Shown here piece by piece: positions 2,421 to 42,086 of a stretch of 47,073 bases of DNA. The first letter of the stretch is position 1; every line of letters begins with the position of its first letter. The notes under the pieces were generated by a model, which was not told the origin of the DNA, ran no database searches, and worked only from the letters and a program-made list of their open reading frames with translations. This stretch comes from Bacillota bacterium (lineage in GTDB: Bacteria; Bacillota; DTU030; DUMP01): positions 1 through 47,073 of the forward strand of contig DURJ01000008.1 in assembly GCA_012837285.1 (NCBI GenBank). Direction: 5' to 3'. The translations under genes were made by a program, and so were the position numbers.

Positions 2421-2950
2421 ATCTGTTGACAAGCAGCCCACTGCAGAGCGATGATAGTCTTGGCGTCTCTGATTTTACCTTGGCTCAACCAGCAAAAGGC
2501 ATCTGCCAACGGGATTGTGGTCAGAGCCAAAAACTCATCAACGTCTGTGTTGCTTAGAACCGGTTTCAAATTTGTGGCACTAAACAAATGCAGTAATTCT
2601 GAACTAAACCCTGGGCTGGTATAAAACGAATAGATGTGTTCCAATTGCTGGGGATAGTATCCTGTTTCTTCAGCCAGCTCCCTGGCAGCACAGTCGGCCG
2701 GATCTTCATTAGATTCCAACTTCCCGGCCGGTATTTCCCACAATTGTCTGTCGGTGGCGTAGCGAAACTGGCGTACCAAAATAATATCACGGGGACTGGG
2801 CCAAGCCAAAACAGCCACCGCTCCGGGATGCTTGACCACGTCTCGGCACGTCTCTTTGCCGTTGGGTAACCTTACCAGAGCTTGTTCGACCCGAAAGATA
2901 CGACCTTCATAGATGCGTCTTATCTGTAGGGTATCCTCGTCCAAGTTCAT
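2414..2950 (-). CDS. Nudix hydrolase, ADP-ribose pyrophosphatase type
   Basis: Hydrolyses nucleoside-diphosphate derivatives, most likely ADP-ribose to AMP and ribose 5-phosphate. The 178-aa protein has a perfect Nudix box GX5EX7REUXEEXGU at residues 76-98 (G76, E82, R90, E91, E94, E95, G97), where the glutamates bind the metal. Length and the N-terminal RRIYEGRIFRVEQ strand region fit the NudF/YqkG subfamily. It is first in the minus-strand group nudix-spoIIM-xerD-deoB. Substrate assignment is inference from subfamily resemblance; membership of the Nudix superfamily is certain. Confidence 0.88.
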   Translation of the reverse strand: MNLDEDTLQIRRIYEGRIFRVEQALVRLPNGKETCRDVVKHPGAVAVLAWPSPRDIILVRQFRYATDRQLWEIPAGKLESNEDPADCAARELAEETGYYPQQLEHIYSFYTSPGFSSELLHLFSATNLKPVLSNTDVDEFLALTTIPLADAFCWLSQGKIRDAKTIIALQWAACQQMA

Positions 2951-3207
2951 GTCTCTTGCTCCTATCTTTTTATTTCACCTGGAAGGCAAACTGAATCTAT
3001 GCTAGGAGATATTTCGCCGATCCTCTCTTCTTCCTGATCCTTGCTTTCTCTCTTCAATACGATAATTCCTGCTGCTCATCGTTCTTTAAACATCAAACAT
3101 CGTTATCAAAAGTAGATGGTAGTACAATTTGTTTCGTATTTGTTTCGGCGGCAGACTACAACCAAAAAAGTTATGTTCTTCCAGCATAACATAGCAGGAA
3201 TCTATCG

Positions 3208-3363
3208 ATGGACCGCGAATATCTTGTGCCAAGGGATTTACTCCTTTACCTTCAAGGCAAGGCTAAAAAGTTACCTAAAAACATGCTTTTTATAGCAGGA
3301 TTTTCTAGAGTTATGTCAAAGTATTTTATACCAGGAGACAGGGGCGAAATAGCAGCACATTAG
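3208..3363 (+). CDS. Possible small protein (51 aa), unrecognised
   Basis: An ATG-to-TAG frame of 51 codons lies in the otherwise empty 2951-3523 interval. AGGA sits 8 nt before the ATG, and an in-frame TAA at 3187-3189 leaves no earlier start. The product is basic, with an amphipathic LLLYLQGK stretch, a KKLPKN segment, and an AGFSRVMSKYF segment followed by an acidic tail. I do not recognise the family. It could be a real small protein or a chance frame; the dispersed GCAGGATTTT motif (see findings) lies inside it, coding A-G-F. A hairpin (GTTATG/CATAAC, 3171-3191) lies just upstream. The rest of 2951-3523 shows no other gene. Confidence 0.35.
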   Translation: MDREYLVPRDLLLYLQGKAKKLPKNMLFIAGFSRVMSKYFIPGDRGEIAAH

Positions 3364-3523
3364 CAGGAAAAATTGTCACAATTATAACAGGAGACAGTAC
3401 ATTCCGAATTGTCTTACCGATGCGGCCTGGTTTACTAAGCAAACGGCCAAGTAAGGGGGTGATGTTTGCGCACTAGTAGAATCATGGTAACCGTAGTAAA
3501 GCATTGACAAGGAGGTTGGACTT

Positions 3524-4873
3524 ATGGGTGAACAAACTCGTGAGACGTTTGGCAGTAGAATGGGCTTTATCTTCGCTGCCGCCGGATCGGCCATTGGTTT
3601 AGGTAATATTTGGCGTTTCCCGTATTTAGTCGGTGTTTATGGCGGTGCAGCTTTCCTCGTTGTTTATTTGGCTATTGTCATCATAATTGGTGTTGTCTGT
3701 TTCATTGCTGAAGTGTCGCTGGGTCGACATACGCGGCAGTCAAACGTCGGTGCCTTTAAAGCCCTGAAACCGTCCTGGGCTCCGGTGGGCCTAATCGGTA
3801 TTACGGCAGGGTTTATGATTCTATCATTTTACAGTGTGGTTGGCGGCTGGACTATTTACTACTTTTTCCGTGCTGTTGCCGGCTTTAAATTTGCTGATCC
3901 CAGCGTCAGTGCCGATTTATTTGTCGGTTTTATCAGCAACCCATTGTCGCCTCTTCTCTTCCACGCCTTGTTCATGGGTGCTACTATCTGGATCGTTTAT
4001 CAGGGCATTCAAGGCGGTATTGAAAAGTACTCTAACATTATGATGCCCGCCTTGTTTGTAATCATAGTAATCTTGGCTATTCGATCCATGACCTTGCCTG
4101 GCGGCGGCGCTGGGTTAGAGTTCTACTTGAAACCGGACTTCTCCAAGATTGACGGCGAAACTCTGCTGGCTGCTTTGGGACAGGTGTTTTTCTCCTTGAG
4201 CTTGGGCATGGGATCTATCTTAACCTACGGTAGCTATCTGAGTAAGGACGAAAACATTCCCTATGTTTGCACTGTTGTACCCCTTATGGATACACTAGTC
4301 GCATTCTTAGCTGGACTGGTTGTTTTCCCGGCTGTATTTGCTTACGGTTTCGAACCTGGTTCCGGTGGTGGTCTGGCCTTTATCACCCTGCCGGCTGTCT
4401 TTAATGAGATGCCCGCCGGGAACCTGTTCGGTGGAGCTTTCTTCTTCCTGCTCTTCTTGGCTGCGCTCACTTCGGCCATTTCCCTGTTGGAGCCGGTGGC
4501 AGCTTATATGATCGAAGAGCACGGTTGGGAGCGCAAGAAGGCTGTGCTTATTATGGGTACCATTATATTTGTTGTTGGTATTGCTTGCTCGCTGTCTAAC
4601 GGGGTATGGAGCGGGTTTCTCATCGCTGGTAAAAATTTCTTTGATTTCATGGACTTCGTTTCTGGGAACATTTTCCTTCCCGTTAGCGGCATGCTTACCG
4701 CCATCTTTGTGGCTTGGGTTTGGGGAAGCAAAAACGCCCTGCAAGAAGCCACTAATGACGGCACTGTTAAGTTCGGTTGGGGCAATCTGTGGGCTAACGT
4801 GCTGATTAAATACGTAGCTCCGATCTTGATTGCCGTTGTGTTCCTAAGCAGTGTTGGCTTGATCAAGCTCTAG
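3524..4873 (+). CDS. Sodium-dependent NSS (SNF) family amino-acid transporter, copy 1
   Basis: Sodium-coupled symporter of the neurotransmitter:sodium symporter family (LeuT fold), located in the cytoplasmic membrane; the substrate is probably an amino acid but cannot be read from sequence. The 449-aa protein has 11-12 hydrophobic segments. The TM1 sodium/substrate motif GSAIGLGNIWRFPY is at residues 21-34 and GVYGGAAF at 37-44. The TM8 sodium-site motif LAALTSAIS is at 312-320. AGGAGG precedes the ATG with ideal spacing. It is followed by its own terminator and then a near-identical paralogue at 5408. The two upstream regions share the bases just before and including the ribosome-binding site, so the duplication included the leader. 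Confidence 0.93.
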   Translation: MGEQTRETFGSRMGFIFAAAGSAIGLGNIWRFPYLVGVYGGAAFLVVYLAIVIIIGVVCFIAEVSLGRHTRQSNVGAFKALKPSWAPVGLIGITAGFMILSFYSVVGGWTIYYFFRAVAGFKFADPSVSADLFVGFISNPLSPLLFHALFMGATIWIVYQGIQGGIEKYSNIMMPALFVIIVILAIRSMTLPGGGAGLEFYLKPDFSKIDGETLLAALGQVFFSLSLGMGSILTYGSYLSKDENIPYVCTVVPLMDTLVAFLAGLVVFPAVFAYGFEPGSGGGLAFITLPAVFNEMPAGNLFGGAFFFLLFLAALTSAISLLEPVAAYMIEEHGWERKKAVLIMGTIIFVVGIACSLSNGVWSGFLIAGKNFFDFMDFVSGNIFLPVSGMLTAIFVAWVWGSKNALQEATNDGTVKFGWGNLWANVLIKYVAPILIAVVFLSSVGLIKL

Positions 4874-4904
4874 GATAATAAAGCATCTAACAGGTAGTCA
4901 AGCA

Positions 4905-4940
4905 AGAAGGTGGCGCTTTTGGAGCACCACCTTCTTTTTG
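4905..4940 (+). terminator. Rho-independent terminator of NSS copy 1
   Basis: AGAAGGTGG (4905-4913) pairs with CCACCTTCT (4927-4935). An additional inner GCT/AGC pairing closes the loop. The stem is followed by TTTTT. It lies 32 nt past the stop codon, so each NSS copy is its own transcription unit. Confidence 0.88.
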
Positions 4941-5385
4941 GGTGTCTTTTCAGGAGTAATCGAAAAATCAAGGAAGCGGGTACAATGGCATCGAACAAGT
5001 CCCCCCTTCACATCATTGCCACAAAAACTCTTCTTCATTGTCATCCTGAGAACTTTGCCCGCAAGATTTTAAGATTCCTCAGTCGCTTTGCTCCCTCGGC
5101 ATAACGGGTAGTCTATTCATTTGCCGTGCTACGGGCATCGCTGGATATTCAATAACGCCATTTACTCTTGAATAGACACCTTCTTGGCTTTATAACGATT
5201 ATGTGTTCGCTCAATCGCCACCATTAACGGTATTGCGAATTTAATAGACGCACAATGAAATTGGATCGCCAAAAACTTGTAAGTTTAGGCAGGATTTTCT
5301 GTCTTAATGTCTAATTAGTAAATTAGGGTTGGCGAGCGAAGGAGGTGTGCCTGGAATTATCATAATTGCAATAACCATGTTAAAT
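4941..5385. other. Gene-free spacer between the NSS copies; degenerate repeat-like sequence
   Basis: No convincing gene is visible. A 39-codon frame at 4985-5104 falls on sequence resembling the widespread TCATCCTGAG...AGATTCCTCAG dispersed repeat (about 5037-5095), so I do not call it coding. A 9-bp inverted repeat, GTCTATTCA (5111-5119) and TGAATAGAC (5169-5177), flanks about 50 bp and may be a small decayed element. GCAGGATTTTCT occurs at about 5289, as it does upstream of copy 1. Confidence 0.4.
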
Positions 5386-5407: not shown

Positions 5408-6757
5408 ATGGGTGGAGAAAGTCGTGAAACGTTTGGTAGTAGACTAGGATTTATCTTTGCCGCCGCCGGATCGGCCATTGGTTTGGGCAACATTTGGCGC
5501 TTTCCGTATTTGGTCGGTGTCTATGGCGGTGCAGCTTTCTTGGTGGTCTATTTGGCCATCGTGGTAATAATAGGTGTCGTGTGTTTCATCTCTGAAGTGG
5601 CGTTGGGCCGCCACACCAGACAGTCCAACGTCGGTGCCTTCAAAGCTATCAAGCCCTCCTGGGCCCCAGTAGGCCTAATTGGAATTATCGCCGGGTTTAT
5701 GATTCTCTCATTCTACGGCGTCGTTGGCGGTTGGACTATTTACTATTTTTTCAAAGCAATTGCTGGCTTTGCTTTTCCTGACCCCGGTGCCAGTACCGAT
5801 TTGTTTGTCGGCTTTATCAGTAATGCCATCTTGCCGCTTATTTATACAGCCATATTCATGGCCACGACTATCTATATAGTCTACAAAGGTATACAGGATG
5901 GCATAGAAAAGTACTCTAACATCATGATGCCAGCTCTATTTGTGATTATTATTATCTTGGCTATTCGCTCGCTAACGTTGCCTGGTGCCGGCGCCGGGTT
6001 AGAGTTCTACTTAAAGCCGGACTTGTCAAAGATTGATGGCGAAACCCTGTTAGCTGCTTTAGGACAGGTGTTCTTCTCGCTAAGCTTGGGCATGGGATCT
6101 ATTTTAACCTACGGTAGTTACCTCAGCCAAGACGAAAACATTCCCTTTGTTTGCACTATTGTCCCTATGATGGATACACTGATCGCGTTCTTAGCCGGAC
6201 TGGTTATTTTCCCGGCTGTGTTCGCCTACGGCTTTGAACCCGGTTCCGGTGGCGGCCTGGCTTTTATTACCTTACCGGCTGTTTTCAATGAAATGCCGGC
6301 AGGTAACCTGTTCGGTGGCGCTTTCTTCTTCCTGCTCTTCTTGGCAGCGCTCACTTCGTCCATTTCCCTATTGGAACCTGTGGTAGCTTACATGATGGAA
6401 GAACATGGTTGGGAGCGTAAGAAAGCTACAATCACCATGGGTGGTCTGATATTCGTAGTTGGCATCGCCTGTTCATTATCAAATGGGATCTGGAGCGGAT
6501 TCATTGTTCTCGACAGAAATATCTTTGATCTGTTGGATTTCATTTCCGGCAACGTTTTACTTCCCATCAGCGGAATGCTTACGGCCATTTTTGTAGCTTG
6601 GGTCTGGGGCAGCAAAAATGCCTTACAAGAAGCCACTAACGACGGCACAATCGAATTTGCTTGGGGCAACTTGTGGGCTAACGTCCTGATTAAGTATGTA
6701 GCGCCCATTTTGATTGCCGTTGTATTCATGAGCAGCGTAGGTATAATCAAAATTTAG
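5408..6757 (+). CDS. Sodium-dependent NSS (SNF) family amino-acid transporter, copy 2
   Basis: Paralogue of the transporter at 3524, the same length (449 aa) and alignable without gaps; only five of the first 60 residues differ. It keeps the TM1 motif GSAIGLGNIWRFPY and the TM8 sodium-site motif LAALTSSIS, so it should be a functional sodium symporter. Differences cluster in the central loops (for example FAFPDPGASTD against FKFADPSVSAD, about residues 121-131), which could tune substrate or regulation. The start is the ATG at 5408, 9 nt after AAGGAGG; an out-of-frame ATG at 5404 overlaps it. A strong terminator follows. Substrate is unknown. Confidence 0.93.
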   Translation: MGGESRETFGSRLGFIFAAAGSAIGLGNIWRFPYLVGVYGGAAFLVVYLAIVVIIGVVCFISEVALGRHTRQSNVGAFKAIKPSWAPVGLIGIIAGFMILSFYGVVGGWTIYYFFKAIAGFAFPDPGASTDLFVGFISNAILPLIYTAIFMATTIYIVYKGIQDGIEKYSNIMMPALFVIIIILAIRSLTLPGAGAGLEFYLKPDLSKIDGETLLAALGQVFFSLSLGMGSILTYGSYLSQDENIPFVCTIVPMMDTLIAFLAGLVIFPAVFAYGFEPGSGGGLAFITLPAVFNEMPAGNLFGGAFFFLLFLAALTSSISLLEPVVAYMMEEHGWERKKATITMGGLIFVVGIACSLSNGIWSGFIVLDRNIFDLLDFISGNVLLPISGMLTAIFVAWVWGSKNALQEATNDGTIEFAWGNLWANVLIKYVAPILIAVVFMSSVGIIKI

Positions 6758-18132: not shown

Positions 18133-19191
18133 CTATTTGCGCGTCCATACGTCAGTCAATTCCAACTGCTGTAAATAGGCCCAGGTCTCACAGTCAAATA
18201 CCAGAGGTTTCCTTCGCAAAGCAGGTAAATCCTTAGCTCCAACTAAGATCATAACCGTTCTTAACTCAGCCAGATAACGCTGGACCAAACACACCCCGGC
18301 TTTAACACCACCAACTGTCACCGCCTGCAGCAGCGGTTTGGCAACACCGCAGATCTTAGCACCCAGGGCCAAAGCTTTAGCCATGTCAAGACCGCTTCTA
18401 ATACCCCCTGACGCGCATACTTCAGCCTTGGGATTGGCTCCCAGGACGTCTAGTAAGCTTCGTGCCGTGGACAAGCCCCAGCCGCTTAACGGGGAATTTG
18501 AACGATCTCGACGGGTGTGTTCTATAAGCACAAAATTAGTACCGCCTGAGCCGCTCACATCGATAGCTGCTACACCCAGTTCAAGCAAACGCCTGGCTGT
18601 TACTCCCGTTATCCCACAGCCGACTTCTTTGGCAATAACTGGGACTGGCAGCTGTTGGGACACGGCCATGATACGTTCGCCCCAATAGAAAGAACGGTCT
18701 CCTTCTTTCATAGCCAGCTCCTGAGCCGCATTCAGATGCAGCTGTAACCCCTGAGCTTGGAGCATTTCAACTGCGCCGCGGGCATCGTCTGCACTGCTGT
18801 CGGCACCTAGATTGGCAAAAATCACCCCGTCAGGATAGATACGGCGGACTATAGTAAAACTGGAGGCAACCCGCGGATCATCTAAAGCTATTCGTTGTGA
18901 CCCCACAGCCATGGGCAAACCAGAACATTTAGCAACCTGTGCTAGCTGCGCATTAATGCACGCACCTCGGCGGGTGCCGCCGGTGAGGGCATTGATCAGC
19001 AGAGGGGCACTAAACTTCATACCACAAAACTCTGTCGTAATGTCGATGTCCTGTTGTGATAACTCAGGTAAAGCCTCCGGCTGAAAACTAATGCCGCCAA
19101 ATAAACTGCCTCTGGCACCGTCAGAGAGCTTCAGGGCCAGTTTTAGATGTTGGTCTTTTCTCCTCTGCCGAACTATGCTATTCGTCACCAT
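18133..19191 (-). CDS. fni: Type II isopentenyl-diphosphate delta-isomerase
   Basis: FMN-dependent enzyme that interconverts IPP and DMAPP in isoprenoid synthesis. The 352-aa protein opens with the family motif IVRQRRKDQH and has LLINALTGGT (FMN/substrate site, about residues 66-75), GCGITG, the DVSGSGGTNF phosphate-binding segment and ASGGIRSGLD. The ATG at 19191 gives the usual length; the open frame to 19275 runs back inside the upstream gene. It overlaps the ispH-rpsA stop by 14 nt, so it is co-translated with another isoprenoid enzyme. Because IspH already makes both IPP and DMAPP, Fni balances the pool. Confidence 0.94.
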   Translation of the reverse strand: MVTNSIVRQRRKDQHLKLALKLSDGARGSLFGGISFQPEALPELSQQDIDITTEFCGMKFSAPLLINALTGGTRRGACINAQLAQVAKCSGLPMAVGSQRIALDDPRVASSFTIVRRIYPDGVIFANLGADSSADDARGAVEMLQAQGLQLHLNAAQELAMKEGDRSFYWGERIMAVSQQLPVPVIAKEVGCGITGVTARRLLELGVAAIDVSGSGGTNFVLIEHTRRDRSNSPLSGWGLSTARSLLDVLGANPKAEVCASGGIRSGLDMAKALALGAKICGVAKPLLQAVTVGGVKAGVCLVQRYLAELRTVMILVGAKDLPALRRKPLVFDCETWAYLQQLELTDVWTRK

Positions 19192-21364
19192 CTGTCTCGG
19201 GTTCATTGTCCGGACTAATCTCTTCAGGGGCATCGGCTTCGACAGCGTCTGCAGTCTCAATTTCGTCTTCCCCATCTTCCGTGGGAGTCAATATCTGTAA
19301 TTCGGGAGGTACTTGCTTGATAGACAGACTAATTCTTCTTTCGTCTTCGTTAATATCAAGCACTTTCACTTTCACTTGTTGGCCAATTTCCACTATCTCA
19401 GTGGGATGACCCACGTGACGTGGAGCCAACTGTGAAATATGGACTAGCCCTTCCACTCCATCCATTAGCTTGACAAAAGCGCCGAAGTCAAGAATGTTGG
19501 TAACTAGACCTTCGTGAACAGTAGCCACAGGGAAATTGTGCCTGATTTCCAACCACGGATCTGGTTTGACTTGCTTAAGCCCTAAAGATATGCGATTCCG
19601 TTCCGGATCCAGACGCAACACCTTAACATCTACTTCTTCTCCCTCGGCTACCACTTCGGACGGGTGGCGAACTCGAGACCAGGCCATTTCTGAGATATGA
19701 ACCAAGCCTTCGGCCCCGCCTAAATCTACAAAGGCACCAAAATCAGTAAGCTTGGTTACCTTTCCATGTCGTATTTGGCCTTCTTCCAGTTCTGCCCAGA
19801 GGGCTTCCCGCTTGGCTTCCCTCTCTTCTTCCAGCACAGCTCGATGCGATAGTATTACCCGCCTTCGAGCAGGTTCTAACTCAATAATCTTGGCCTTTAA
19901 AGTCTGCCCTACATAATGTGAAAGATCCGCTTCGTAGCGCAGTCCCACTTGGGAAGCTGGCATAAACGCTCTTAATCCCAAGTAAACAATGAGGCCGCCC
20001 CTTACAACTTCTGTAACTTTACCTTCTATTGGTTCCGCATTCTCGTAATGCTTTTTCAGCAGCTCCCAAGCTTCTTCTTGATCGGCTCGCCGCTTGGACA
20101 AAAGAAGATTGTTTCCTTCTGCATCCACTTTCAGGACAGCGACTTTAATCTCTTCTCCAACCTGAGTAACCTCTTCCGGGCTGGAGAAAAGTGCATCGCT
20201 GAGTTCTGCCAAAGGAATAAGCCCTTCTGATTTATAGCCAACATCCACGAGTACTCCATCGTTGTCCACTCGTACTACTTTTCCAGTGACAACCTGGCCC
20301 TCCTGCAAGGTAAGCAATGAGCTAGCATACAGTTCTTCAACTGTTTCCTTCGCTTCCATAGCTTCCATGGCATCGGTGGCTTCTGTGGTTTCCGCGGCTT
20401 CCGCGGCTTCCGCTTCCGCAGGAGCACTTGGAGACTCCTGGACTGCTGTTTCCTCTTCCTTCGGCGTTTCCGACGCCGCTTCCACTTGTTCCTCTTCTGT
20501 CACCGCTTGTACCTCTTCCTTTAGAATGTCTTCAGTCATTCTGCCGTAAACCTCCTCGATCATTTCCTCAGGCGCCGACGCACCAGCCGTTATTCCAACC
20601 GTCTCCTTGCCAGCAAACCACTTTGGATCAAGCTCTTCTCCGCTGGTGACCAGATAGGTAGGAACACCCTCTGCCCGACAAATTTGGACCAGGCGGCGGG
20701 TATTAGCGCTCTGGTTACTACCTACCACTATCATAACGTCCACACGCCGCGCAAGAGCTTGCGCGGCCATCTGACGCTGCGTGGTCGCATCACATAATGT
20801 GTCATGGATATTCACGCGGGCCCCTCGGTTCCGCAGTGCACAGGCCACGGACTGTACGCTGGTTGGTGCCTGTGTTGTTTGAGCCAAAAGTTCTATGGTC
20901 TGAGGCAGTTCAGACAGGCTCTTCACCTGATCGGCATGCCCCACTACGATTATTCTACCAGGACCTTGGGCGTGGGCGACAATCCCTTTTACTTCGGGAT
21001 GCTCACTCTCTCCCACCAACACAACTGTCTTGCCTGCACCGCTAAGATGCGCAGCCAACTCCTGCACTTTTCGTACCCGGGGACAAGTGGCATCATAAAG
21101 AGTAAAACCACAGGTTCGAGCTTCAGCAACCGTTTCCGGGCTGACGCCATGCGCTCGAATTATCAATGCCGCCGAATCTACGCCCATTAGTCGATCAATA
21201 GGTTCTACTCCTTGATTACGCAATTTGGCCACTACATGTTCATTATGAACTAACGGGCCAAAGCTATACACTTTTGTTCCATTAGCCAAAGCCTGCTTGG
21301 CCAGGGTTAGCGCCCGCTTAACACCGGGACAAAACCCGCATGGGTCCGCACGAATAATCTTCAC
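19178..21364 (-). CDS. ispH: IspH / ribosomal protein S1 fusion (HMBPP reductase - RpsA)
   Basis: A 728-aa two-domain protein. The N-terminal part (about 1-285) is 4-hydroxy-3-methylbut-2-enyl diphosphate reductase, the last MEP-pathway step, with the iron-sulfur cysteines C12 (GFCPGV), C94 (DATCPRV) and C191 (DTLCDATTQRQ). A low-complexity Glu/Ala/Thr linker (about 285-345) joins it to four S1 RNA-binding repeats; the last two keep the KVTKLTDFGAFVDL and LVTNILDFGAFVKL pattern. The fusion is known in Clostridia. I chose GTG at 21364 with AAGGA 8 nt upstream; a GTG at 21388 adds 8 residues. It precedes fni with overlap. A possible sigma-H promoter lies at 21416-21445. Confidence 0.95.
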   Translation of the reverse strand: MKIIRADPCGFCPGVKRALTLAKQALANGTKVYSFGPLVHNEHVVAKLRNQGVEPIDRLMGVDSAALIIRAHGVSPETVAEARTCGFTLYDATCPRVRKVQELAAHLSGAGKTVVLVGESEHPEVKGIVAHAQGPGRIIVVGHADQVKSLSELPQTIELLAQTTQAPTSVQSVACALRNRGARVNIHDTLCDATTQRQMAAQALARRVDVMIVVGSNQSANTRRLVQICRAEGVPTYLVTSGEELDPKWFAGKETVGITAGASAPEEMIEEVYGRMTEDILKEEVQAVTEEEQVEAASETPKEEETAVQESPSAPAEAEAAEAAETTEATDAMEAMEAKETVEELYASSLLTLQEGQVVTGKVVRVDNDGVLVDVGYKSEGLIPLAELSDALFSSPEEVTQVGEEIKVAVLKVDAEGNNLLLSKRRADQEEAWELLKKHYENAEPIEGKVTEVVRGGLIVYLGLRAFMPASQVGLRYEADLSHYVGQTLKAKIIELEPARRRVILSHRAVLEEEREAKREALWAELEEGQIRHGKVTKLTDFGAFVDLGGAEGLVHISEMAWSRVRHPSEVVAEGEEVDVKVLRLDPERNRISLGLKQVKPDPWLEIRHNFPVATVHEGLVTNILDFGAFVKLMDGVEGLVHISQLAPRHVGHPTEIVEIGQQVKVKVLDINEDERRISLSIKQVPPELQILTPTEDGEDEIETADAVEADAPEEISPDNEPETDGDE

Positions 21365-21415
21365 AACTATCTTCCTTCTTCTGGTCACTCGTAATATAAG
21401 GCATAAGTCATAGTC

Positions 21416-34270: not shown

Positions 34271-35068
34271 CTATGCCAGTTCAGTATGGGCAGCTTCTAT
34301 CACTTGAGCAACGTCAAGGCTTACCTTGGAGGGGGAATGGCGAGCATAGACCAAGTATTCGATATTACCTTTGGCTCCTTTGATGGGAGAATAATCAAGA
34401 CCTACACAACTCATATACCGGTTAAGCATGCACATGATTCTGGTTAGTACTTCCTGGTGTAACAGCGGATCCTTGACAATTCCTCCCTTGCCCACTTTGC
34501 CCTTGCCCACTTCGAATTGTGGTTTTATCAGTGCCACTATTTCTCTCTCTCCTACCAGGACATTGAGCACTGGCGGGACGACTTTTTCTAAGGAAATGAA
34601 AGACACATCGATACAGGCTATTTCCGGCAAGGGAACCAGTTGTTCTTTAGCTAAATATCTGATATTAGTGCGCTCCAACACTGCCACTTTCGGATTTTGT
34701 CTCAGTCTCCAAGCCAGCTGCCCGTAACCTACATCCACCGCGTACACCTTCGCCGCTCCGTGTTGCAGGGCACAATCAGTGAAACCCCCTGTTGAGGCCC
34801 CACCATCTAACACAATCTTGCCCTCAAAATTTAGCCCAAAACAACGGATCGCTTTTTCCAGTTTTAGGCCCCCACGACTTACATAGGGTAGATCTTCTCC
34901 GAGAAGTACCACTTCTGCATCTGGGCGTACTTTGGTTCCGGATTTGTCGGTGAGCTGTCCATCCACTAAAACCTCCCCGGCCAGAATTCGAGCTTGTGCC
35001 CGCTCCCGGCTGGGAGCCAGTCCTCGTTCCACCAGCAATAGGTCTAGCCTCTTAGTTGTCACGGCCAT
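34271..35068 (-). CDS. tlyA: TlyA family rRNA (cytidine-2'-O)-methyltransferase
   Basis: Methylates 16S/23S rRNA using S-adenosylmethionine. The 265-aa protein has an N-terminal S4 RNA-binding domain (about 4-62; RLDLLLVERGLAPSRERAQARILAG) and an FtsJ/RrmJ-like methyltransferase domain with the SAM motif VLDGGASTGGFTDCALQHGA (about 83-102). KPQFEVGKGKVGKGG is the catalytic K region. The ATG at 35068 has AAAGG 6 nt upstream and overlaps the dxs stop by 17 nt. It follows dxs and leads to the nuclease-like gene across a 155-bp gap with no visible feature. Confidence 0.95.
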   Translation of the reverse strand: MAVTTKRLDLLLVERGLAPSRERAQARILAGEVLVDGQLTDKSGTKVRPDAEVVLLGEDLPYVSRGGLKLEKAIRCFGLNFEGKIVLDGGASTGGFTDCALQHGAAKVYAVDVGYGQLAWRLRQNPKVAVLERTNIRYLAKEQLVPLPEIACIDVSFISLEKVVPPVLNVLVGEREIVALIKPQFEVGKGKVGKGGIVKDPLLHQEVLTRIMCMLNRYMSCVGLDYSPIKGAKGNIEYLVYARHSPSKVSLDVAQVIEAAHTELA

Positions 35069-36959
35069 CACTTGCCTTTAGCTCTTTTCTGTTTTGGCTG
35101 AGGCTAAAATAGTTATGAAAACAGGTCGTGAGGTTTTGCTCATCTAAGCCGCATAACTTGAGCTGTTCCTGTCGGCTGGCCTGTTCGATAAACCGGTCCT
35201 TTATTCCTAAGCGTTTGATCGGAATACCCATGGCGGCTTCACTTACCAGCTCTAAGACAGCACTACCGAAGCCCCCCGCCAAAGCATGATCTTCCACAGT
35301 AATAAGTCGATTATGTCGGCGAACAAGGTCCAAAATCAGATCGGTTGGTAAAGGCTTGACAAATCGTACATCGCATACCCCAATGTCCAGACCTTCTTTA
35401 GACAAGGCCCGGGCCACTCTGAGGCTGGGTAGCACCATACTGCCCACAGCTAACACCATGCCTTGCGAGCCTTCCTTGAGGATTTCCCCTTCACCCCAAC
35501 CGGCTGTGCTGGTTATCCATGGAGCAGATTCGACCGCAGCACGGGGATAACGGATTGCCACCGGCCCCGGGTACTCAACAGCAGAATGTAACATGTACTC
35601 CAGCTCACCGGCATCACGCGGTGCTAACACAGTCATATTAGGAATATGGCGCAAATAGGCTAGGTCAAACAAGCCTTGGTGTGTGGCTCCATCCTCACCC
35701 ACCAAGCCAGCCCGATCCAGGCAAAGAGTTACCGGAAGATTTTGGAGGCAAACGTCATGAATAACTTGATCGTAAGCTCGTTGGAGGAATGTGCTGTAAA
35801 TAGCTACCACCGGGCGCTTGCCGGCGGCTGCCAAGGCAGCTGCCATGGTGACAGCATGTTGTTCAGCAATGCCCACGTCAAAAAAACGCTCCGGATAGCG
35901 CTTCGCAAATTCTGCTAGACCTGTACCGGAAGCCATGGCGGCACAAACAGCGACCAGATCGTGCTTCTTGGCTCCAAGCTCTAACATGGTCTTGGCAAAA
36001 ACGTCCGTATAAGTGATACTACCATCAGTGCGGGGCCGGCCGGTACTCACATCAAAAGGCCCAATCCCATGGTACTTATCCGGACTTTTTTCTGCCGGTG
36101 GATAGCCCTTCCCTTTTTTTGTCAGCACATGAATTAGCACCGGACCGTTAATCTTACGGGCATGATCGAACACACTCCGTAAATGAGCAATATCGTGTCC
36201 GTCCAGCGGGCCGAAATAAGTAAAACCGAGCTCTTCAAATAGTGTACCCGGAATTAGCATAAACCGCACACCATCTTTAACCCTTTCGGCTGTCCGGGCC
36301 ATTTGTGTTCCTATGGCTGGAATCCGTTTCAGTAAGAACTCAATGTCTTCTTTTAATCGAAAATAATTCGGATTAGATCTTAGCCTTGTCAGGTACAATG
36401 AGAGCGCGCCGACATTGTGACTAATGGACATTTTGTTGTCATTGAGAACCACAACGAGTCGTTTGCCCAGCTGTCCAGCATGGTTAAGAGCTTCGAACGC
36501 CATGCCTCCGGTTAAAGAGCCGTCACCAATAACTGCACACGTTACTCCATCCGCGCCGTTAAGGTCGCGAGCGATCGCGTAACCTAAAGCAGCAGAGATT
36601 GATGTGCTGCTGTGACCGACTCCAAAGTAGTCGTAGGTACTCTCAGAACGGTTTGGATATCCGCTTAAACCTCCAGCCAGGCGCAAACTGGAAAAGGTGG
36701 TACGGCGACCGGTAAGTAGCTTGTGGGCATAGGCTTGATGACCAACGTCCCAAATAATCTTGTCTCCTGGCTGATTGTAGACATAATGTAAAGCCACCGT
36801 AAGTTCTACCACACCCAAATTGGGAGCCAAATGTCCTCCGTTTACCGCTACGGTGGTTATTATTCTTTCCCTCAATTCCTCACACAGGGCCTCAAGCTCT
36901 TGCAGCTTGAGACCCTTTAGGTCCGACGGGTTATGTATTCGAGCTAGAATTCCTGTCAT
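35052..36959 (-). CDS. dxs: 1-deoxy-D-xylulose-5-phosphate synthase
   Basis: First MEP-pathway enzyme: condenses pyruvate and glyceraldehyde 3-phosphate (TPP-dependent). The 635-aa protein has the TPP motif VIGDGSLTGGMAFEALNHAG then LNDNKMSIS (about 143-182), the transketolase pyrimidine domain (about 315-480, with DVGIAEQHAVTMAAALAAAGKRPVV) and a C-terminal transketolase domain. It starts at the ATG at 36959, sharing one base with the oapA stop. In the OLE-type gene cluster dxs is the gene that follows oapA, as here. Confidence 0.97.
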   Translation of the reverse strand: MTGILARIHNPSDLKGLKLQELEALCEELRERIITTVAVNGGHLAPNLGVVELTVALHYVYNQPGDKIIWDVGHQAYAHKLLTGRRTTFSSLRLAGGLSGYPNRSESTYDYFGVGHSSTSISAALGYAIARDLNGADGVTCAVIGDGSLTGGMAFEALNHAGQLGKRLVVVLNDNKMSISHNVGALSLYLTRLRSNPNYFRLKEDIEFLLKRIPAIGTQMARTAERVKDGVRFMLIPGTLFEELGFTYFGPLDGHDIAHLRSVFDHARKINGPVLIHVLTKKGKGYPPAEKSPDKYHGIGPFDVSTGRPRTDGSITYTDVFAKTMLELGAKKHDLVAVCAAMASGTGLAEFAKRYPERFFDVGIAEQHAVTMAAALAAAGKRPVVAIYSTFLQRAYDQVIHDVCLQNLPVTLCLDRAGLVGEDGATHQGLFDLAYLRHIPNMTVLAPRDAGELEYMLHSAVEYPGPVAIRYPRAAVESAPWITSTAGWGEGEILKEGSQGMVLAVGSMVLPSLRVARALSKEGLDIGVCDVRFVKPLPTDLILDLVRRHNRLITVEDHALAGGFGSAVLELVSEAAMGIPIKRLGIKDRFIEQASRQEQLKLCGLDEQNLTTCFHNYFSLSQNRKELKASDGRDN

Positions 36960-37549
36960 TATCTCTTACCCCCACTGTTATTTTTCGTCCCCAATAACTC
37001 TCGACCCCGGATGCGTTCTGCCAGGAACAGTACGCGTCCCATCTGTAGTGTTATGGCGTTGGCCCGTTGTAAAGAAAAATGCTTGCTCACAGCCTTTCCC
37101 CCCACTGTTAAGGCGGAAATAAAGGCTACAACTACCAAAGCCACCCATTCTTCCTTCAGTGCAGGGTAGCGCTTAACCAGACTAAATACAATAATAGCGC
37201 CAGTGGCTCCAGATAAGGTGCCGGCCATATCACCGACCATGTCATTGCAGAAATTGCTTACAGCCGGTGCTTGGCGCAACAATCGAATGGCCTGACGTGC
37301 TCCAGGGACTTTTTTCGCTGCCATAGCATGTAGGGGCGGTTCATCAGCCACGGTTACAGCTACCCCCATAACATCAAACAGAATGCCGAGCCCTACAATA
37401 GTCAGCAGCACCAAAAAGGCTAAAAAAAATGGTACCGCGCGTACCACATACCCCGAACAAAAGCTTAATAACAAAGAAAGCCCAAGAGTTAGCGCTCCTA
37501 CTTTGAATCCATGTCGCCAGGCATCTACTTCCGTGTCCTTAGATTTCAC
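36959..37549 (-). CDS. oapA: OLE-associated protein OapA (DUF21-like membrane protein)
   Basis: A 196-aa polytopic membrane protein whose known homologues bind OLE RNA and anchor it to the membrane; in Bacillus halodurans the complex is needed for tolerance to short-chain alcohols, cold and magnesium. Four hydrophobic segments lie at about 16-34, 38-60, 108-126 and 134-154. Conserved-looking features are FDVMGVAVTVADEPP (57-71), an acidic NDMVGD (102-107) and the KKVPGARQA segment. The start is GTG at 37549, with GGAG 9 nt upstream; the frame running to 37651 would enter the RNA gene. It lies directly downstream of the OLE RNA and one base from dxs. I identify it by context plus DUF21-like resemblance. 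Confidence 0.8.
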   Translation of the reverse strand: MKSKDTEVDAWRHGFKVGALTLGLSLLLSFCSGYVVRAVPFFLAFLVLLTIVGLGILFDVMGVAVTVADEPPLHAMAAKKVPGARQAIRLLRQAPAVSNFCNDMVGDMAGTLSGATGAIIVFSLVKRYPALKEEWVALVVVAFISALTVGGKAVSKHFSLQRANAITLQMGRVLFLAERIRGRELLGTKNNSGGKR

Positions 37550-37599
37550 CCCACCACACTCCGACTCTTTTTCTCGGCTCTCCAGACAATGGCAGGTGG

Positions 37600-38214
37600 T
37601 AACAGAATAAGTAAATGTTGCGGCTTCAGGTCTAGTAGGTTTTCCCAACAATCACCTTGTCGTCACCGAAGAGGCGGTTTCCCTTTACGATTGCTCGATG
37701 CCGTTGCCGAACATCGGACTAGATTACCACTTAGCCCGCACTTTAATCCTTATTCTGTCCCAACTTGGTTGGGCAGTCTAGGAGTTTTCCCCGACAACAC
37801 TTCTGCTTTCTAGCCTCTTTTGCATAAAAGGTTTCAACAGCAGCGACCGGCTGTCTTTGGGCCCTTAGACAGCAAGTCGGACCTGTATTCACCCCTTACA
37901 CTCAAGGCAGGCTACGCTGCACACAGCTTGCACCGCATGCAGGTTCATGTCCCAAGCCGTAACTTAGAGCCACGCACTTGGGTCTCCGCGGGAAGAGGGT
38001 CAGCGGCCACATGCCGTTGTGGTTGCCCTGTTCCCTTAACTCCCAGCACCAGCCGCACACTGGGCGTATACGGCCACCACCAGAAACTTCATCGCTGTGC
38101 CCTTGACGGATTTTTAGGCCCGTTTTCGAAAGCAAAAGTGTTGACTAGAATACTGCACCACCTGACCTCGGAAAGCTACTACCTCAAAGATCAAGTGAAT
38201 CATATTGGCAGTTC
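37600..38214 (-). ncRNA. ole: OLE RNA (ornate, large, extremophilic)
   Basis: A 615-nt (ends approximate) gene-free interval on the minus strand between the DUF212/ispA genes and oapA-dxs, which is where OLE RNA is encoded in Firmicutes. It has its own strong sigma-A promoter (38221-38249), no coding frame on this strand that looks real, and several visible hairpins. The clearest is an 11-bp stem with one 2x2 internal loop (CGAC and GCTGTCT, 37844-37879). Others are CCCAAC/GTTGGG (37759-37773), CCACA/TGTGG (about 38004-38022) and CCCAG/CTGGG (about 38041-38063). Length fits the roughly 610-nt family. I did not compare it with the Rfam model; a covariance search would settle it. Confidence 0.85.
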
Positions 38215-38220
38215 GAAACT

Positions 38221-38249
38221 ATTATATCATGGCTCAAAAACTGGTGCAA
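38221..38249 (-). promoter_or_regulatory. Sigma-A promoter of OLE RNA
   Basis: On the minus strand TTGCAC (38244-38249), a 17-bp spacer and perfect TATAAT (38221-38226) with an extended -10 TG (38228-38229). It lies just after the DUF212 stop; the predicted start is about 38214. No protein gene begins near it except oapA 660 bp away. Confidence 0.85.
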
Positions 38250-38255
38250 CGGACT

Positions 38256-38693
38256 TTAGAGACGCATAAGGACTGCCACAACCGCCCCTAAAAACGCACC
38301 GGCAAATACCTCTATCGGAGTGTGCCCTAGAAGCTCACGCAAACGTTCTTCCCGTATGCGGCCCCCTTTGAACACTTCATCAACGATTTGATTTAGAACA
38401 ATGGCCTGAGCTCCTGCTGCCCGACGAACACCGGCCGAATCGTACATAACAATAAAGGCCAGGACTATGGCGATAGCTGCCTCAGCTGAAGCAAAACCCT
38501 TGACTCGGCCTACCGCGATAGACAGAGCTGTAACCAAGGCGGAATGTGAACTGGGCATTCCACCGGGGCTGACCAGACGCATAAAATCCCAGCGACGCTT
38601 GGCAAGCAGTGTGCTAGGCACCTTCAAGCTTTGAGCGGTGACCCAGGCAATAAGAGCCGTGAGGAGAATTCTATTATCCCCTAATCCGGACAT
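38256..38693 (-). CDS. Divergent PAP2 family protein (DUF212, YuiD-like)
   Basis: A 145-aa membrane protein of the DUF212 family, a divergent relative of PAP2 acid phosphatases. Visible motifs are PGGMPSSHSALVTAL (about 43-57), MYDSAGVRRAAGAQA (about 82-96) and LGHTPIEVFAGAFLGA near the end. The motifs occur in membrane segments. GGAGG precedes the ATG at 38693. It sits between ispA and OLE RNA, so it might act on isoprenoid phosphates such as farnesyl or undecaprenyl diphosphate, but this is only inference; the family has no agreed activity that I know of. Confidence 0.88.
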   Translation of the reverse strand: MSGLGDNRILLTALIAWVTAQSLKVPSTLLAKRRWDFMRLVSPGGMPSSHSALVTALSIAVGRVKGFASAEAAIAIVLAFIVMYDSAGVRRAAGAQAIVLNQIVDEVFKGGRIREERLRELLGHTPIEVFAGAFLGAVVAVLMRL

Positions 38694-38742: not shown

Positions 38743-39642
38743 TTAATACTTCCGCTGTATCGCATAGCAAGCTAAAGCCGTGAGCGGTTCAGCCGCCTCA
38801 TCAAAATTGGCGAGAGCTACTGAGGCCTCAGTAGCTAGCCGTTGGGCCGCATGTTTAGCTTCCTGCAATCCGTACACCGTTACGTAGGTTAGTTTTTGGT
38901 GCTGCGCGTCTGTCTTCACCGGTTTTCCCAACAATTCTGGATCTCCAGTAGCATCGAGAATATCGTCGCAGATTTGAAAAGCTAGTCCTAACTTCTGCCC
39001 GTATGTGGTGAGGGATGCCAGTTGCTCCGAATTAGCTGCTCCAATAATAGCGCCTACCCGAACAGCAGCTGTTAGTAAGGCACCTGTCTTGTGAGCATGG
39101 ATGTACTTAAGCATAGAAGGCGCATCTTGTGCTTGAATTGTGCCCTCTTCCTTAATGTCTGCACTTTGACCCCCTACCATCCCTTTAGGACCGGCCGCGT
39201 CGGCAATTTCCAGCACAACCTGTAGTATTGTTTCGGCTGGAACCGAAGGAAAGTTATTGGGAGTAGCCAAAATAGAAAACGCATGGGTAAGAAGAGCATC
39301 ACCAGCCAATATTGCTTGGGCTTCGCCAAATACCTTATGACTGGTTGGCTGGCCGCGTCGCCAATCATCATCGTCCATGGCCGGTAAATCATCATGAATA
39401 AGAGAGTAAGTATGAATGAATTCAATGGCACAAGCAGCTGGCATGGCAGCTCGAGGATCAGCACCAACCGCCTCAGCACTGGCTAGAGCTAAGATCGGTC
39501 TTAGCCTCTTGCCCCCGGCAAACAGGCTATAACGCATAGCAGCTCCCAGTTGCTCCACTTCCGGGGGCAACTTCGGCATGTAGGACAGCAACGCTTCTTC
39601 TATTTGTTGGGCTCGGTCAACCAAGTACTGTTTTAGATTCAT
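38743..39642 (-). CDS. ispA: Polyprenyl synthetase, farnesyl diphosphate synthase type
   Basis: Elongates DMAPP with IPP to geranyl and farnesyl diphosphate. The 299-aa protein has GGKRLRP (about 44-50), the first aspartate-rich motif DDLPAMDDDD (about 81-90) and the second, FQICDDILDATGD (about 223-235). The ATG at 39642 has GGAGG 7 nt upstream and overlaps the xseB stop by 4 nt (ATGA). It matches the classical xseA-xseB-ispA order; dxs is separated from it by DUF212, OLE RNA and oapA. Confidence 0.96.
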   Translation of the reverse strand: MNLKQYLVDRAQQIEEALLSYMPKLPPEVEQLGAAMRYSLFAGGKRLRPILALASAEAVGADPRAAMPAACAIEFIHTYSLIHDDLPAMDDDDWRRGQPTSHKVFGEAQAILAGDALLTHAFSILATPNNFPSVPAETILQVVLEIADAAGPKGMVGGQSADIKEEGTIQAQDAPSMLKYIHAHKTGALLTAAVRVGAIIGAANSEQLASLTTYGQKLGLAFQICDDILDATGDPELLGKPVKTDAQHQKLTYVTVYGLQEAKHAAQRLATEASVALANFDEAAEPLTALACYAIQRKY

Positions 39643-39890
39643 TCCTCTTCCTCCCAATCAGATTCAGGCCCTGGAGACAGACTATTGAAATCCATCACCT
39701 TTAGAGTCTCTTCAGCCTCTCCCAGCAACCCTTCGCAATACTTGAGCAACTCTTTCCCTTCCTTGAAAGCCGTTAAGGTTGCTTCGAGACTAAGGTTTCC
39801 CTGTTCAAGGGCTGCCGTCAACTCCTCTAATCGTTCCAGCGCTTCTTCAAAACTTAGCTGCTGTTCTTTTACCTGATCCAACTTAGCCAT
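39639..39890 (-). CDS. xseB: Exodeoxyribonuclease VII small subunit
   Basis: Small helical subunit of ExoVII, which degrades single-stranded DNA. The 83-aa protein shows the standard LSFEEALERLEELTAALEQGNLSLEATLTAFKEG pattern and an acidic tail. The ATG at 39890 overlaps the xseA stop by 8 nt (ATGGCTAA); another ATG at 39899 is possible. It is coupled to xseA upstream and ispA downstream. Confidence 0.95.
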   Translation of the reverse strand: MAKLDQVKEQQLSFEEALERLEELTAALEQGNLSLEATLTAFKEGKELLKYCEGLLGEAEETLKVMDFNSLSPGPESDWEEEE

Positions 39891-41124
39891 TATCCTCATC
39901 TCCTCGATTGGGTACCGATACTTGGGTCAACACCTCACCGTCCAAGAATCTTAATCTAAGAACCTGGCCAGGATACGTTTGGCCAACACGAGACACCAGG
40001 CAACCGCTGTCTTGGTCTAAGGCAGCTACAAAACCGCGCTCTAGTACCGCTACCGGATCAAGTGCCAGTAGAGCCCGTCTTATCTCTGCCAGCGCTCTTT
40101 TTTTATCGGCCAAGAACCGGGTCTTAGCGTGCAGCAATTCACTTTTGATATACCCAAGCGCCTGCCTTCGGTCAGCTAGCTGAGCCACCGGTTCACGCCA
40201 CGGTTTCCGTTCTATCATGCCGCTTAGGGCCTGGCGATGACGGGAAAGGCGCCGATTAAGAGCCTCGTCCAACCGCCGTGAAAAATAGAATAACTCCTTC
40301 TCAATATGCTTGATATCAGGAAACACTATTTCAGCGGCCGCTGATGGAGTGGCTGCCCTTACATCGGCAGCCAAATCAGCCAAAGTATAGTCAATCTCGT
40401 GGCCCACCGCACTGATGACGGGTGATCGACAAGCTGCCACTTGGCGAGCCACCTGCTCATGATTGAAAGCCCAGAGATCTTCCCTACTTCCACCTCCCCG
40501 GGCCAAGATAATTACATCTATACCCTCCATTTCATTCAATCTGCTTAAAGCATGGACGATCTGACCGGGGGCGTTCTGGCCTTGAACCAGTACCGGACAA
40601 ACGACTATTTCAATGCCGGCAAAACGTCGCCGAGCCACGGCCAGTATGTCCTGTAAGGCGGCTCCCACTGGTGAGGTCACCACAGCTACCCGCTGTGGAA
40701 ATGGCGGCAGTGGCCGTTTGCGTTCAGGAGCAAAGAGCCCCTCTTTAGCTAAGCGCTCTTTGGTCTGTTCTAAAGCCAGATACTGTGCTCCTAGACCATC
40801 CGGTTGTAGCTCCCGGACATAGAGCTGATATGCGCCGTCACGCTCATATACACCAACCTCGCCCAGCGCCAACACACTCAGGCCGGAAGCGGGTTCAAAG
40901 CGCAAACGCCTGGCAAAGCTGCGGAACATAACACAGCGCAGTAGACTATCGGCATCTCTTAGGGAAAAATAAACATGTCCCGATGAATGACATCTAAACG
41001 TACCGATCTCACCGCGTACCCATACGCTCCCTAAGCGAGGGTCTGCTTCCAAGTTGTCCTTAACCAGACGTGTAAGCTCAGCTACACTGTACACCAGCGC
41101 CGGCAAAGGCCACGTAGGGGTCAT
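39883..41124 (-). CDS. xseA: Exodeoxyribonuclease VII large subunit
   Basis: Catalytic subunit of ExoVII. The 413-aa protein has an N-terminal OB-fold DNA-binding domain (about 8-105), then the catalytic domain with VVTSPVGAALQDI (about 149-161), the ARGGGSREDLWAFN motif (about 208-221) and SAVGHEIDYTLADLAADVRAATPSAAAE, followed by a coiled-coil C-terminal region. The start ATG at 41124 overlaps the end of the Kae1-like gene by 4 nt (ATGA). AGGAGGGG is upstream. Identification is certain. Confidence 0.97.
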   Translation of the reverse strand: MTPTWPLPALVYSVAELTRLVKDNLEADPRLGSVWVRGEIGTFRCHSSGHVYFSLRDADSLLRCVMFRSFARRLRFEPASGLSVLALGEVGVYERDGAYQLYVRELQPDGLGAQYLALEQTKERLAKEGLFAPERKRPLPPFPQRVAVVTSPVGAALQDILAVARRRFAGIEIVVCPVLVQGQNAPGQIVHALSRLNEMEGIDVIILARGGGSREDLWAFNHEQVARQVAACRSPVISAVGHEIDYTLADLAADVRAATPSAAAEIVFPDIKHIEKELFYFSRRLDEALNRRLSRHRQALSGMIERKPWREPVAQLADRRQALGYIKSELLHAKTRFLADKKRALAEIRRALLALDPVAVLERGFVAALDQDSGCLVSRVGQTYPGQVLRLRFLDGEVLTQVSVPNRGDEDNG

Positions 41125-42086
41125 GGCTTTCCCCTCCTTAAGGTCGACAAACCTAACCAGGCTATGCCAACGGCATTGTCTGTACTGAGCTTGGGTGGGG
41201 CAAAAAACAATTTTCCTCCTACTGCCTGATGCTCGAGCCGGTCCCTTAAGCGCTCACGGATAATCTTGTTAGCGGCAACGCCGCCTACTAGTAAGACATC
41301 ACCAATCCCAAGCTCAGTAATTGCCAGGCGCAGTATCTTCTCCATAGAATTGGCAATACAACGAAACACGGCTCGTGCAATGGCCGCCTTATTGGCGTCA
41401 TTAGACACAAGCCGCAAGGCGGCTGTGGTAGGACCTGAAAAGCTGACTTGATATCCCTTTGTATGAGAAGGTACTACCAGCTCGTCCGCAGTTGGGTCTG
41501 TTAGGGCCAATTTTTCCAGGTCCGGTCCGGCTGGGAAACGAAGGCCGAGAGCGACGCCAACGCGATCGACAAATTGTCCGGCATTTAGGTCCATGGTTTT
41601 CCCCAAAACAGATAACTCAAAGCCGTCTGCCTTTTCCTGCACTGCCAGTAATTCTGTGGTCCCGCCCGACATATGAACCGCCAGAAACGCACCTGCAGAT
41701 GGGCCCCCGGCCCCCAGTCGCCCGGCAGCTAAGTGACCTTCTTGATGAGTAAAAGGTAACGACGGTATACCCATTACCCCGGCTATGGACTGAGCTAAAG
41801 ACGAAGCCGCGGTAAAGACTGGCAGATAGGAATCCGGCCGAGCGGTAGGTCTTTCGCTATAAGCTATCGCGACCGGTCTTAAGTGAGGTAACGACCGCAT
41901 TTGTTGCAACAGCTGAGGAAAGTTCTGCCAATGTTGAAACAAGGCCTCTTGCTGTCGAAGACCGGCAGTTCCTGGCTCTACTGCCAGCAGCCGGCGCCAG
42001 TCGGCCACTATTTCCCCCGCTAGGGAAACAGCCGCTACCGAAGTGGTGTAGCAGCTGCTGTCAAACCCCAGTACTATTTCTTCCAC
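41121..42086 (-). CDS. Kae1/TsaD-like ASKHA-fold protein (peptidase M22-like)
   Basis: A 321-aa protein related to TsaD/Kae1, the ATP-dependent enzyme for tRNA t6A37 synthesis. It has the opening LGFDSSCYTTSVAAV (about 5-19), the metal-binding HQEGH (about 112-116), a HMSGGTTELLAV segment (about 138-149) and GGVAANKIIRERL (about 269-281). Homology to TsaD is clear, but it is a shorter, diverged paralogue of the type seen beside xseA in Clostridia, and I do not know its function. It overlaps nusB by 13 nt at its start and xseA by 4 nt at its end. folD, which often sits here, is absent. A true tsaD would be elsewhere. Confidence 0.78.
   Translation of the reverse strand: MEEIVLGFDSSCYTTSVAAVSLAGEIVADWRRLLAVEPGTAGLRQQEALFQHWQNFPQLLQQMRSLPHLRPVAIAYSERPTARPDSYLPVFTAASSLAQSIAGVMGIPSLPFTHQEGHLAAGRLGAGGPSAGAFLAVHMSGGTTELLAVQEKADGFELSVLGKTMDLNAGQFVDRVGVALGLRFPAGPDLEKLALTDPTADELVVPSHTKGYQVSFSGPTTAALRLVSNDANKAAIARAVFRCIANSMEKILRLAITELGIGDVLLVGGVAANKIIRERLRDRLEHQAVGGKLFFAPPKLSTDNAVGIAWLGLSTLRRGKP

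Follow-up and report, generated by a model that had tools for sequence, protein, structure and literature searches.

Gene neighbourhood of the OLE RNA

The window, a stretch of 47,073 nucleotides that makes up an entire contig (C8) of a 2.17-Mb assembly (204 contigs, 95% complete), carries on its minus strand a gene for OLE RNA (ole), the gene for its predicted membrane partner (oapA) and their neighbours:

34271–35071, minus strand: gene for a TlyA-type rRNA methyltransferase, downstream of dxs (PF01728/PF01479)
35052–36959, minus strand: dxs, 1-deoxy-D-xylulose-5-phosphate synthase (PF13292, 401 bits)
36959–37549, minus strand: oapA, predicted membrane partner of OLE RNA (OapA in 100 of 100 OLE loci)
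37580–38177, minus strand: ole, full-length OLE RNA gene (RF01071 match; sole copy in the genome)
38256–38693, minus strand: DUF212 (divergent PAP2 family) gene (PF02681, 165 bits)
38743–39657, minus strand: ispA, polyprenyl synthetase (PF00348, 203 bits)

Upstream of ole lie DUF212, ispA, xseB and xseA, and downstream oapA, whose stop codon overlaps the dxs start (TAATG), is followed by dxs; the Pfam matches agree with the initial annotation, which had named ispA, DUF212 and dxs as neighbours. Across 100 OLE loci, comprising this one and 99 from a sample of the phylum, the usual order was xseA-xseB-ispA-(DUF212)-OLE-oapA-dxs-tlyA with few departures, and the genes found near OLE were those for OapA (100), IspA (94), TlyA (94), Dxs (93) and DUF212 (30).

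The nearly universal order OLE-oapA-dxs, together with a distance of only about 30 nt between the 3' end of ole and the start of oapA, could indicate that OLE is not so much a free RNA as a leader that acts in cis in the oapA-dxs mRNA. We regard this as unlikely, given that OLE of H. halodurans accumulates on its own as an abundant RNA of about 630 nt, to which OapA, OapB and OapC bind (PMC9723947), and that the constant partner is OapA and not dxs, with ole-oapA followed by tlyA in the absence of dxs at 7 of the 100 loci.

The implied oddity of a DUF212 gene between ispA and the RNA dissolved on comparison, as 30 of the 100 loci have one, and at these loci no recognised gene lies closer upstream of OLE. 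DUF212 also occurs in 9 of 20 genomes of the phylum that lack OLE; in seven of these nine it precedes dxs by 36–108 nt without an intervening oapA, and in six of the seven ispA is just upstream. Because DUF212 keeps its place beside dxs in these genomes, it is part of the isoprenoid cluster; ole and oapA are either both there or both missing at the site between DUF212 and dxs. A role for DUF212 as an OLE-specific partner was rejected on these grounds, and ole-oapA behaves as a cassette within a stable ispA-DUF212-dxs cluster. A text search, outside which most subscription journals fall, returned no publication naming both OLE RNA and DUF212.

Other genes in the window were recorded in passing. 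A TsaD/Kae1-like protein (PF00814) is encoded between nusB and xseA (41121–42086, minus strand); relatives occur at 17 of the 100 loci and, wherever their position is shown, lie upstream of OLE. By eye, a 736-codon frame (19178–21388, minus strand) resembles a fusion of IspH and ribosomal protein S1, and 18133–19275, which follows it, has the appearance of a type 2 isopentenyl-diphosphate isomerase, so that the two frames would form a second isoprenoid site. A tandem pair of membrane-transporter genes, closely similar and each 449 codons long (3524–4873 and 5408–6757, plus strand), resembles, again by eye, the sodium:neurotransmitter symporter family.

Identity and integrity of ole

The initial annotation had read the interval as OLE RNA and proposed a covariance-model search as a check. 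In a cmscan search against Rfam, positions 38177–37580 of the minus strand matched RF01071 with 491.8 bits (E 2.2e-141, accuracy 0.97), exceeding the gathering threshold of 50 bits by 440 bits and covering all model positions 1–616, which confirms that reading by a wide margin. The genome contains one copy. The 598-nt strand folds with a minimum free energy of −241 kcal/mol, compared with −203 kcal/mol for dinucleotide shuffles (z −6.4), and 0 of 100 shuffles were as stable. The blocks that are nearly invariant among OLE RNAs, GCAGUAUUCUAGUC, CCUAAAAAUCCG, CGAUGAAG, GUAGCCUGCCUUGAG, GCAAAAGAGGCUAG and GGAUUAAAGUG, are all there.

Two open reading frames overlap ole, an antisense frame of 149 aa (37820–38269) and a sense frame of 77 aa, and one could suppose that the interval encodes an unannotated protein to which the RNA match is incidental. 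The probability of this is negligible. Beyond the margin of the OLE match itself, the region of the antisense frame, the longest of those overlapping the interval, shows length differences of as much as 8 nt between relatives and acquires stop codons, a copy from the same genus carries indels of 1 and 4 nt, and the pairing of helix P3 covaries, its native score being reached in 0 of 200 permutations of the partner strands. Conserved coding potential was looked for in relatives and not found, in keeping with the earlier description of an interval without a credible gene, and since the antisense frame is not kept open, the protein-coding reading was rejected.

It is also highly improbable that ole is a degenerate, non-functional copy. 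Compared with the Rfam consensus its P7 is shortened, and its score is lower than the best in the phylum (583 bits); however, the lengths of P7 and P8 differ widely from one OLE RNA to another, every strongly conserved block is present, the partners are encoded, oapA is intact, and OLE is kept in 12 of 13 genomes examined from the class. With OLE also found in 284 of 399 genomes sampled across the phylum, the RNA is ordinary in this part of Bacillota. We conclude that ole and oapA very probably form a genuine, intact locus of an already known RNA class. Few conserved bacterial RNAs without a known biochemical mechanism are as large as OLE; the present copy is intact and comes from an uncultured lineage of Bacillota. 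The class is of interest and the instance unsurprising.

Six genomes of the sample (G119, G216, G154, G185, G236 and G267) show two to four partial OLE matches with a weaker best score, a pattern that could arise from split copies, from breaks between contigs or from a sequence inserted into OLE.

A predicted promoter of ole

38221–38249, minus strand: predicted sigma-A promoter, TTGCAC-N17-TATAAT with an extended −10 (TGATATAAT), from sequence and conservation

The predicted promoter comprises TTGCAC (38249–38244), a 17-nt spacer and TATAAT (38226–38221) preceded by TG (38229–38228), placing the predicted start of ole near 38214 and the −10 element 65 nt upstream of the conserved GUGGUGCAG. 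It had been described as a near-consensus sigma-A promoter, which holds for the −10, perfect and extended, and less so for the −35, with only three of six positions matching TTGACA. The extended −10 is conserved in relatives within the class while its flanks drift. Upstream of OLE, the promoter score exceeded the 95th percentile of mononucleotide shuffles at 96 of 107 loci; 90 of these 96 carry the TG, and nearly all lie 19–67 nt upstream of the GUGGUGCAG block. In H. halodurans, ole reportedly has its own promoter inside an operon (PMC9723947), and the class-wide predicted promoter agrees with and extends this known biology.

Helix P3 has a nearly constant length

38128–38143, minus strand: 5' strand of helix P3, CAACACUUUUGCUUUC, forming 16 contiguous pairs with 37810–37795
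37795–37810, minus strand: 3' strand of helix P3, GAAAGCAGAAGUGUUG, covarying across 108 OLE RNAs

In ole, P3 is an unbroken helix of 16 bp that also appears in the minimum-energy fold; in the OLE structure of Rfam these positions are not paired. When the two strands were aligned locally in 108 different OLE RNAs whose anchors could be recognised, the median was 15 pairs within 15–18 positions, with 16–17 positions in 98 of the 108. The mean pairing score was 12.1 for native strands and 7.0 when strands were swapped between RNAs; 0 of 200 permutations reached the native value, a count that is not a probability because related OLE sequences are not independent. Inner positions of the helix take up to six standard pair types each. 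Among 82 RNAs less than 85% identical, the strand lengths of P3 have standard deviations of 0.52 and 0.69 nt, compared with 11–14 nt for P7, P8 and P9 (rough values, as a few P7 and P14/15 anchors are misplaced) and 0.15 nt for the P5.1 hairpin, which is more constant than P3.

Approximately 14 bp have been estimated to be needed to span a bilayer, and P3 plus P3.1 typically amount to 12 bp with a small bulge (PMC12265935); the present count takes in pairs beside the conserved CUAGUC block, which may belong to another stem in that description. The 2025 structural models suggest that OLE crosses the membrane, and the comparison adds a sequence-level constraint on P3, the stem proposed to do so. 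Its constant length and covariation agree with a membrane-spanning role, which they fit and do not prove: because P5.1 varies still less, for other reasons, and no such claim is made for it, constancy was accepted as a sign of constraint and not as proof of membrane crossing. Since P3 hardly changes in length even as its sequence drifts and P7, P8 and P9 lengthen or shorten freely, we tentatively raise the possibility, which we hold to be the less probable case, that P3 is a molecular ruler of 16–17 base-pair steps (~40–47 Å) set by the thickness of the membrane crossed. If so, the unbroken 16-bp P3 of ole would provide a clean test construct.

Loop elements for dimerisation

37844–37879, minus strand: apical P9 hairpin, with the loop palindrome GGGCCC at 37864–37859

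The 11-bp stem with a 2×2 internal loop that had been noted at 37879–37844 was found and corresponds to the apical part of P9, closed by the GGGCCC loop. In the OLE dimer, the palindrome of the P9 loop is a contact (L9.3/bridge B3; PMC12286853). The dimer elements retained in ole comprise the P4 loop CCUAAAAAU, GCCCA in L5.1, GGC in L6.1 and the palindromic L9, and the paired bases of L5.1 and L6.1 are nearly invariant across OLE RNAs.

With loops placed by single-sequence folds, L9 is centred on GGCC in most OLE RNAs, and the exceptions stay palindromic, with AGCT at loci L043, L003 and L068, GCGC at L071 and L121, and CGCG at L089; owing to this mode of placement, some few among the non-palindromic cases are possibly misplaced. 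Switching of L9 from GGCC to GAUC or AGCU has already been published (PMC12286853), so that we do not present palindrome switching as a new finding; on sequence comparison, GCGC and CGCG are further cases beyond those. In OLE RNAs with a short P9 the palindromic L9 is mostly missing. At loci L107, L108, L111, L112, L113, L126 and L128, P9 is reduced from ~77 to ~40 nt in this way, and such RNAs are candidates for dimerisation by other means or for none through P9.

OapA and other partner proteins

The OapA protein has 196 residues and a DxxxD motif (NDMVGD), is 34–69% identical to 65 other OapA proteins in the alignment, and has its nearest relatives in named records among Bacillota MAGs (73–81% identity). 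A profile grown from it found a relative at each of the 100 OLE loci. Its match to the CNNM family (PF01595, formerly DUF21) reached 16.7 bits, under the gathering cut-off of 28.4; weak CNNM matches were seen in 40 of the 66 OapA proteins scanned (best E 2e-07). The NCBIfam and Pfam scan contained no OapA model reaching threshold, and the OapA profile gave chance matches only against PDB sequences. The AlphaFold2 model is all-helical (pLDDT 91.8, pTM 0.80), and its five best PDB matches in Foldseek are all CNNM/CorB/CorC proteins with probabilities of 0.92–1.00, matches that are weak by E value (0.02–0.8, best 0.022) and TM score (0.42–0.47 by query length). Of the initial assignment as an OapA-like protein of the DUF21 type, the OapA part is borne out by the profile, whereas the CNNM match stays below the cut-off; OapA is therefore called CNNM-like, as its predicted fold suggests, and is not filed as CNNM.

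At one locus of the sample (L078, G387:C25:4947-15558), oapA and dxs are joined in a single 835-codon frame (minus strand, 2438–4942). A functional link through an OapA-Dxs fusion was rejected, as it was seen in this one MAG; in two OLE-bearing relatives of the same family (L215 and L218) the genes are separate and overlapping, which makes a one-genome event or an assembly error likelier.

Candidates for the other partners are encoded in the genome. The OapB candidate is a KOW protein between map and infA that matches PDB 7k9b, 'OLE-associated protein B' (E 5.8e-12). One of two L7Ae proteins is of the YbxF type and lies between rpoC and rpsL; from this location, typical of ybxF, and from the best PDB match we infer that it serves as OapC. 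By its location near infB, the other resembles YlxQ. The gene for bS21 is present and is followed by a YqeY-like frame. Apart from OapA, which is sub-threshold, no CNNM/MpfA protein was found above the cut-off in the genome, whose completeness of 95% makes the absence of MpfA less than certain; 12 of 14 control genomes contain a CNNM domain above the cut-off. MpfA and OLE are known to be anticorrelated (PMC11332333), and the absence here is in line with this tendency, which is common and not universal in OLE-bearing genomes.

Working model

For relatives of ole, OapA-dependent membrane localisation, binding of OapB, OapC and bS21, an RNA dimer, and stress and Mg2+ phenotypes have been reported (PMC12265935, PMC11332333, PMC9723947, PMC12054373, PMC12286853). 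The identity of ole is established, and by analogy with its family the same mechanism would hold in this organism. In this model, ole would be transcribed from its own extended −10 promoter, with transcription running on from the xseA-xseB-ispA-DUF212 cluster as a probable second source. Judging from H. halodurans and the conserved parts, the RNA would fold and pair with a second copy via the conserved loop contacts, the CNNM-like OapA would hold it at the membrane, and OapB, OapC and bS21 would also bind it. The most likely function of the complex would be to stand in for Mg2+ transporters of the MpfA type (CNNM), sustaining ion homeostasis under stress. To this MpfA-like role, which builds on published H. 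halodurans genetics and is inferred here because the genome shows no MpfA, we assign an even chance.

Comparison with known systems

MpfA, CorB and CorC are CNNM Mg2+ transporters whose membrane domain the OapA model resembles, from which OapA differs in lacking CBS and CorC domains and in scoring under the CNNM cut-off. With known OapA it shares the character of a helical membrane protein, the DxxxD motif and the position adjoining ole, and nothing sets it apart. The OLE RNAs of H. halodurans, C. acetobutylicum and C. botulinum are of the full-length type, and ole likewise matches the whole model; it further resembles known OLE in having oapA next door, isoprenoid and DNA-repair neighbours, a palindromic L9 dimer loop, OapB, OapC and bS21 in the genome, and a predicted promoter of its own as in H. 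halodurans (PMC9723947). It differs in the DUF212 gene between ispA and ole, and in a P3 of 16 unbroken base pairs in place of the typical 12 bp with a small bulge for P3 plus P3.1 (PMC12265935).
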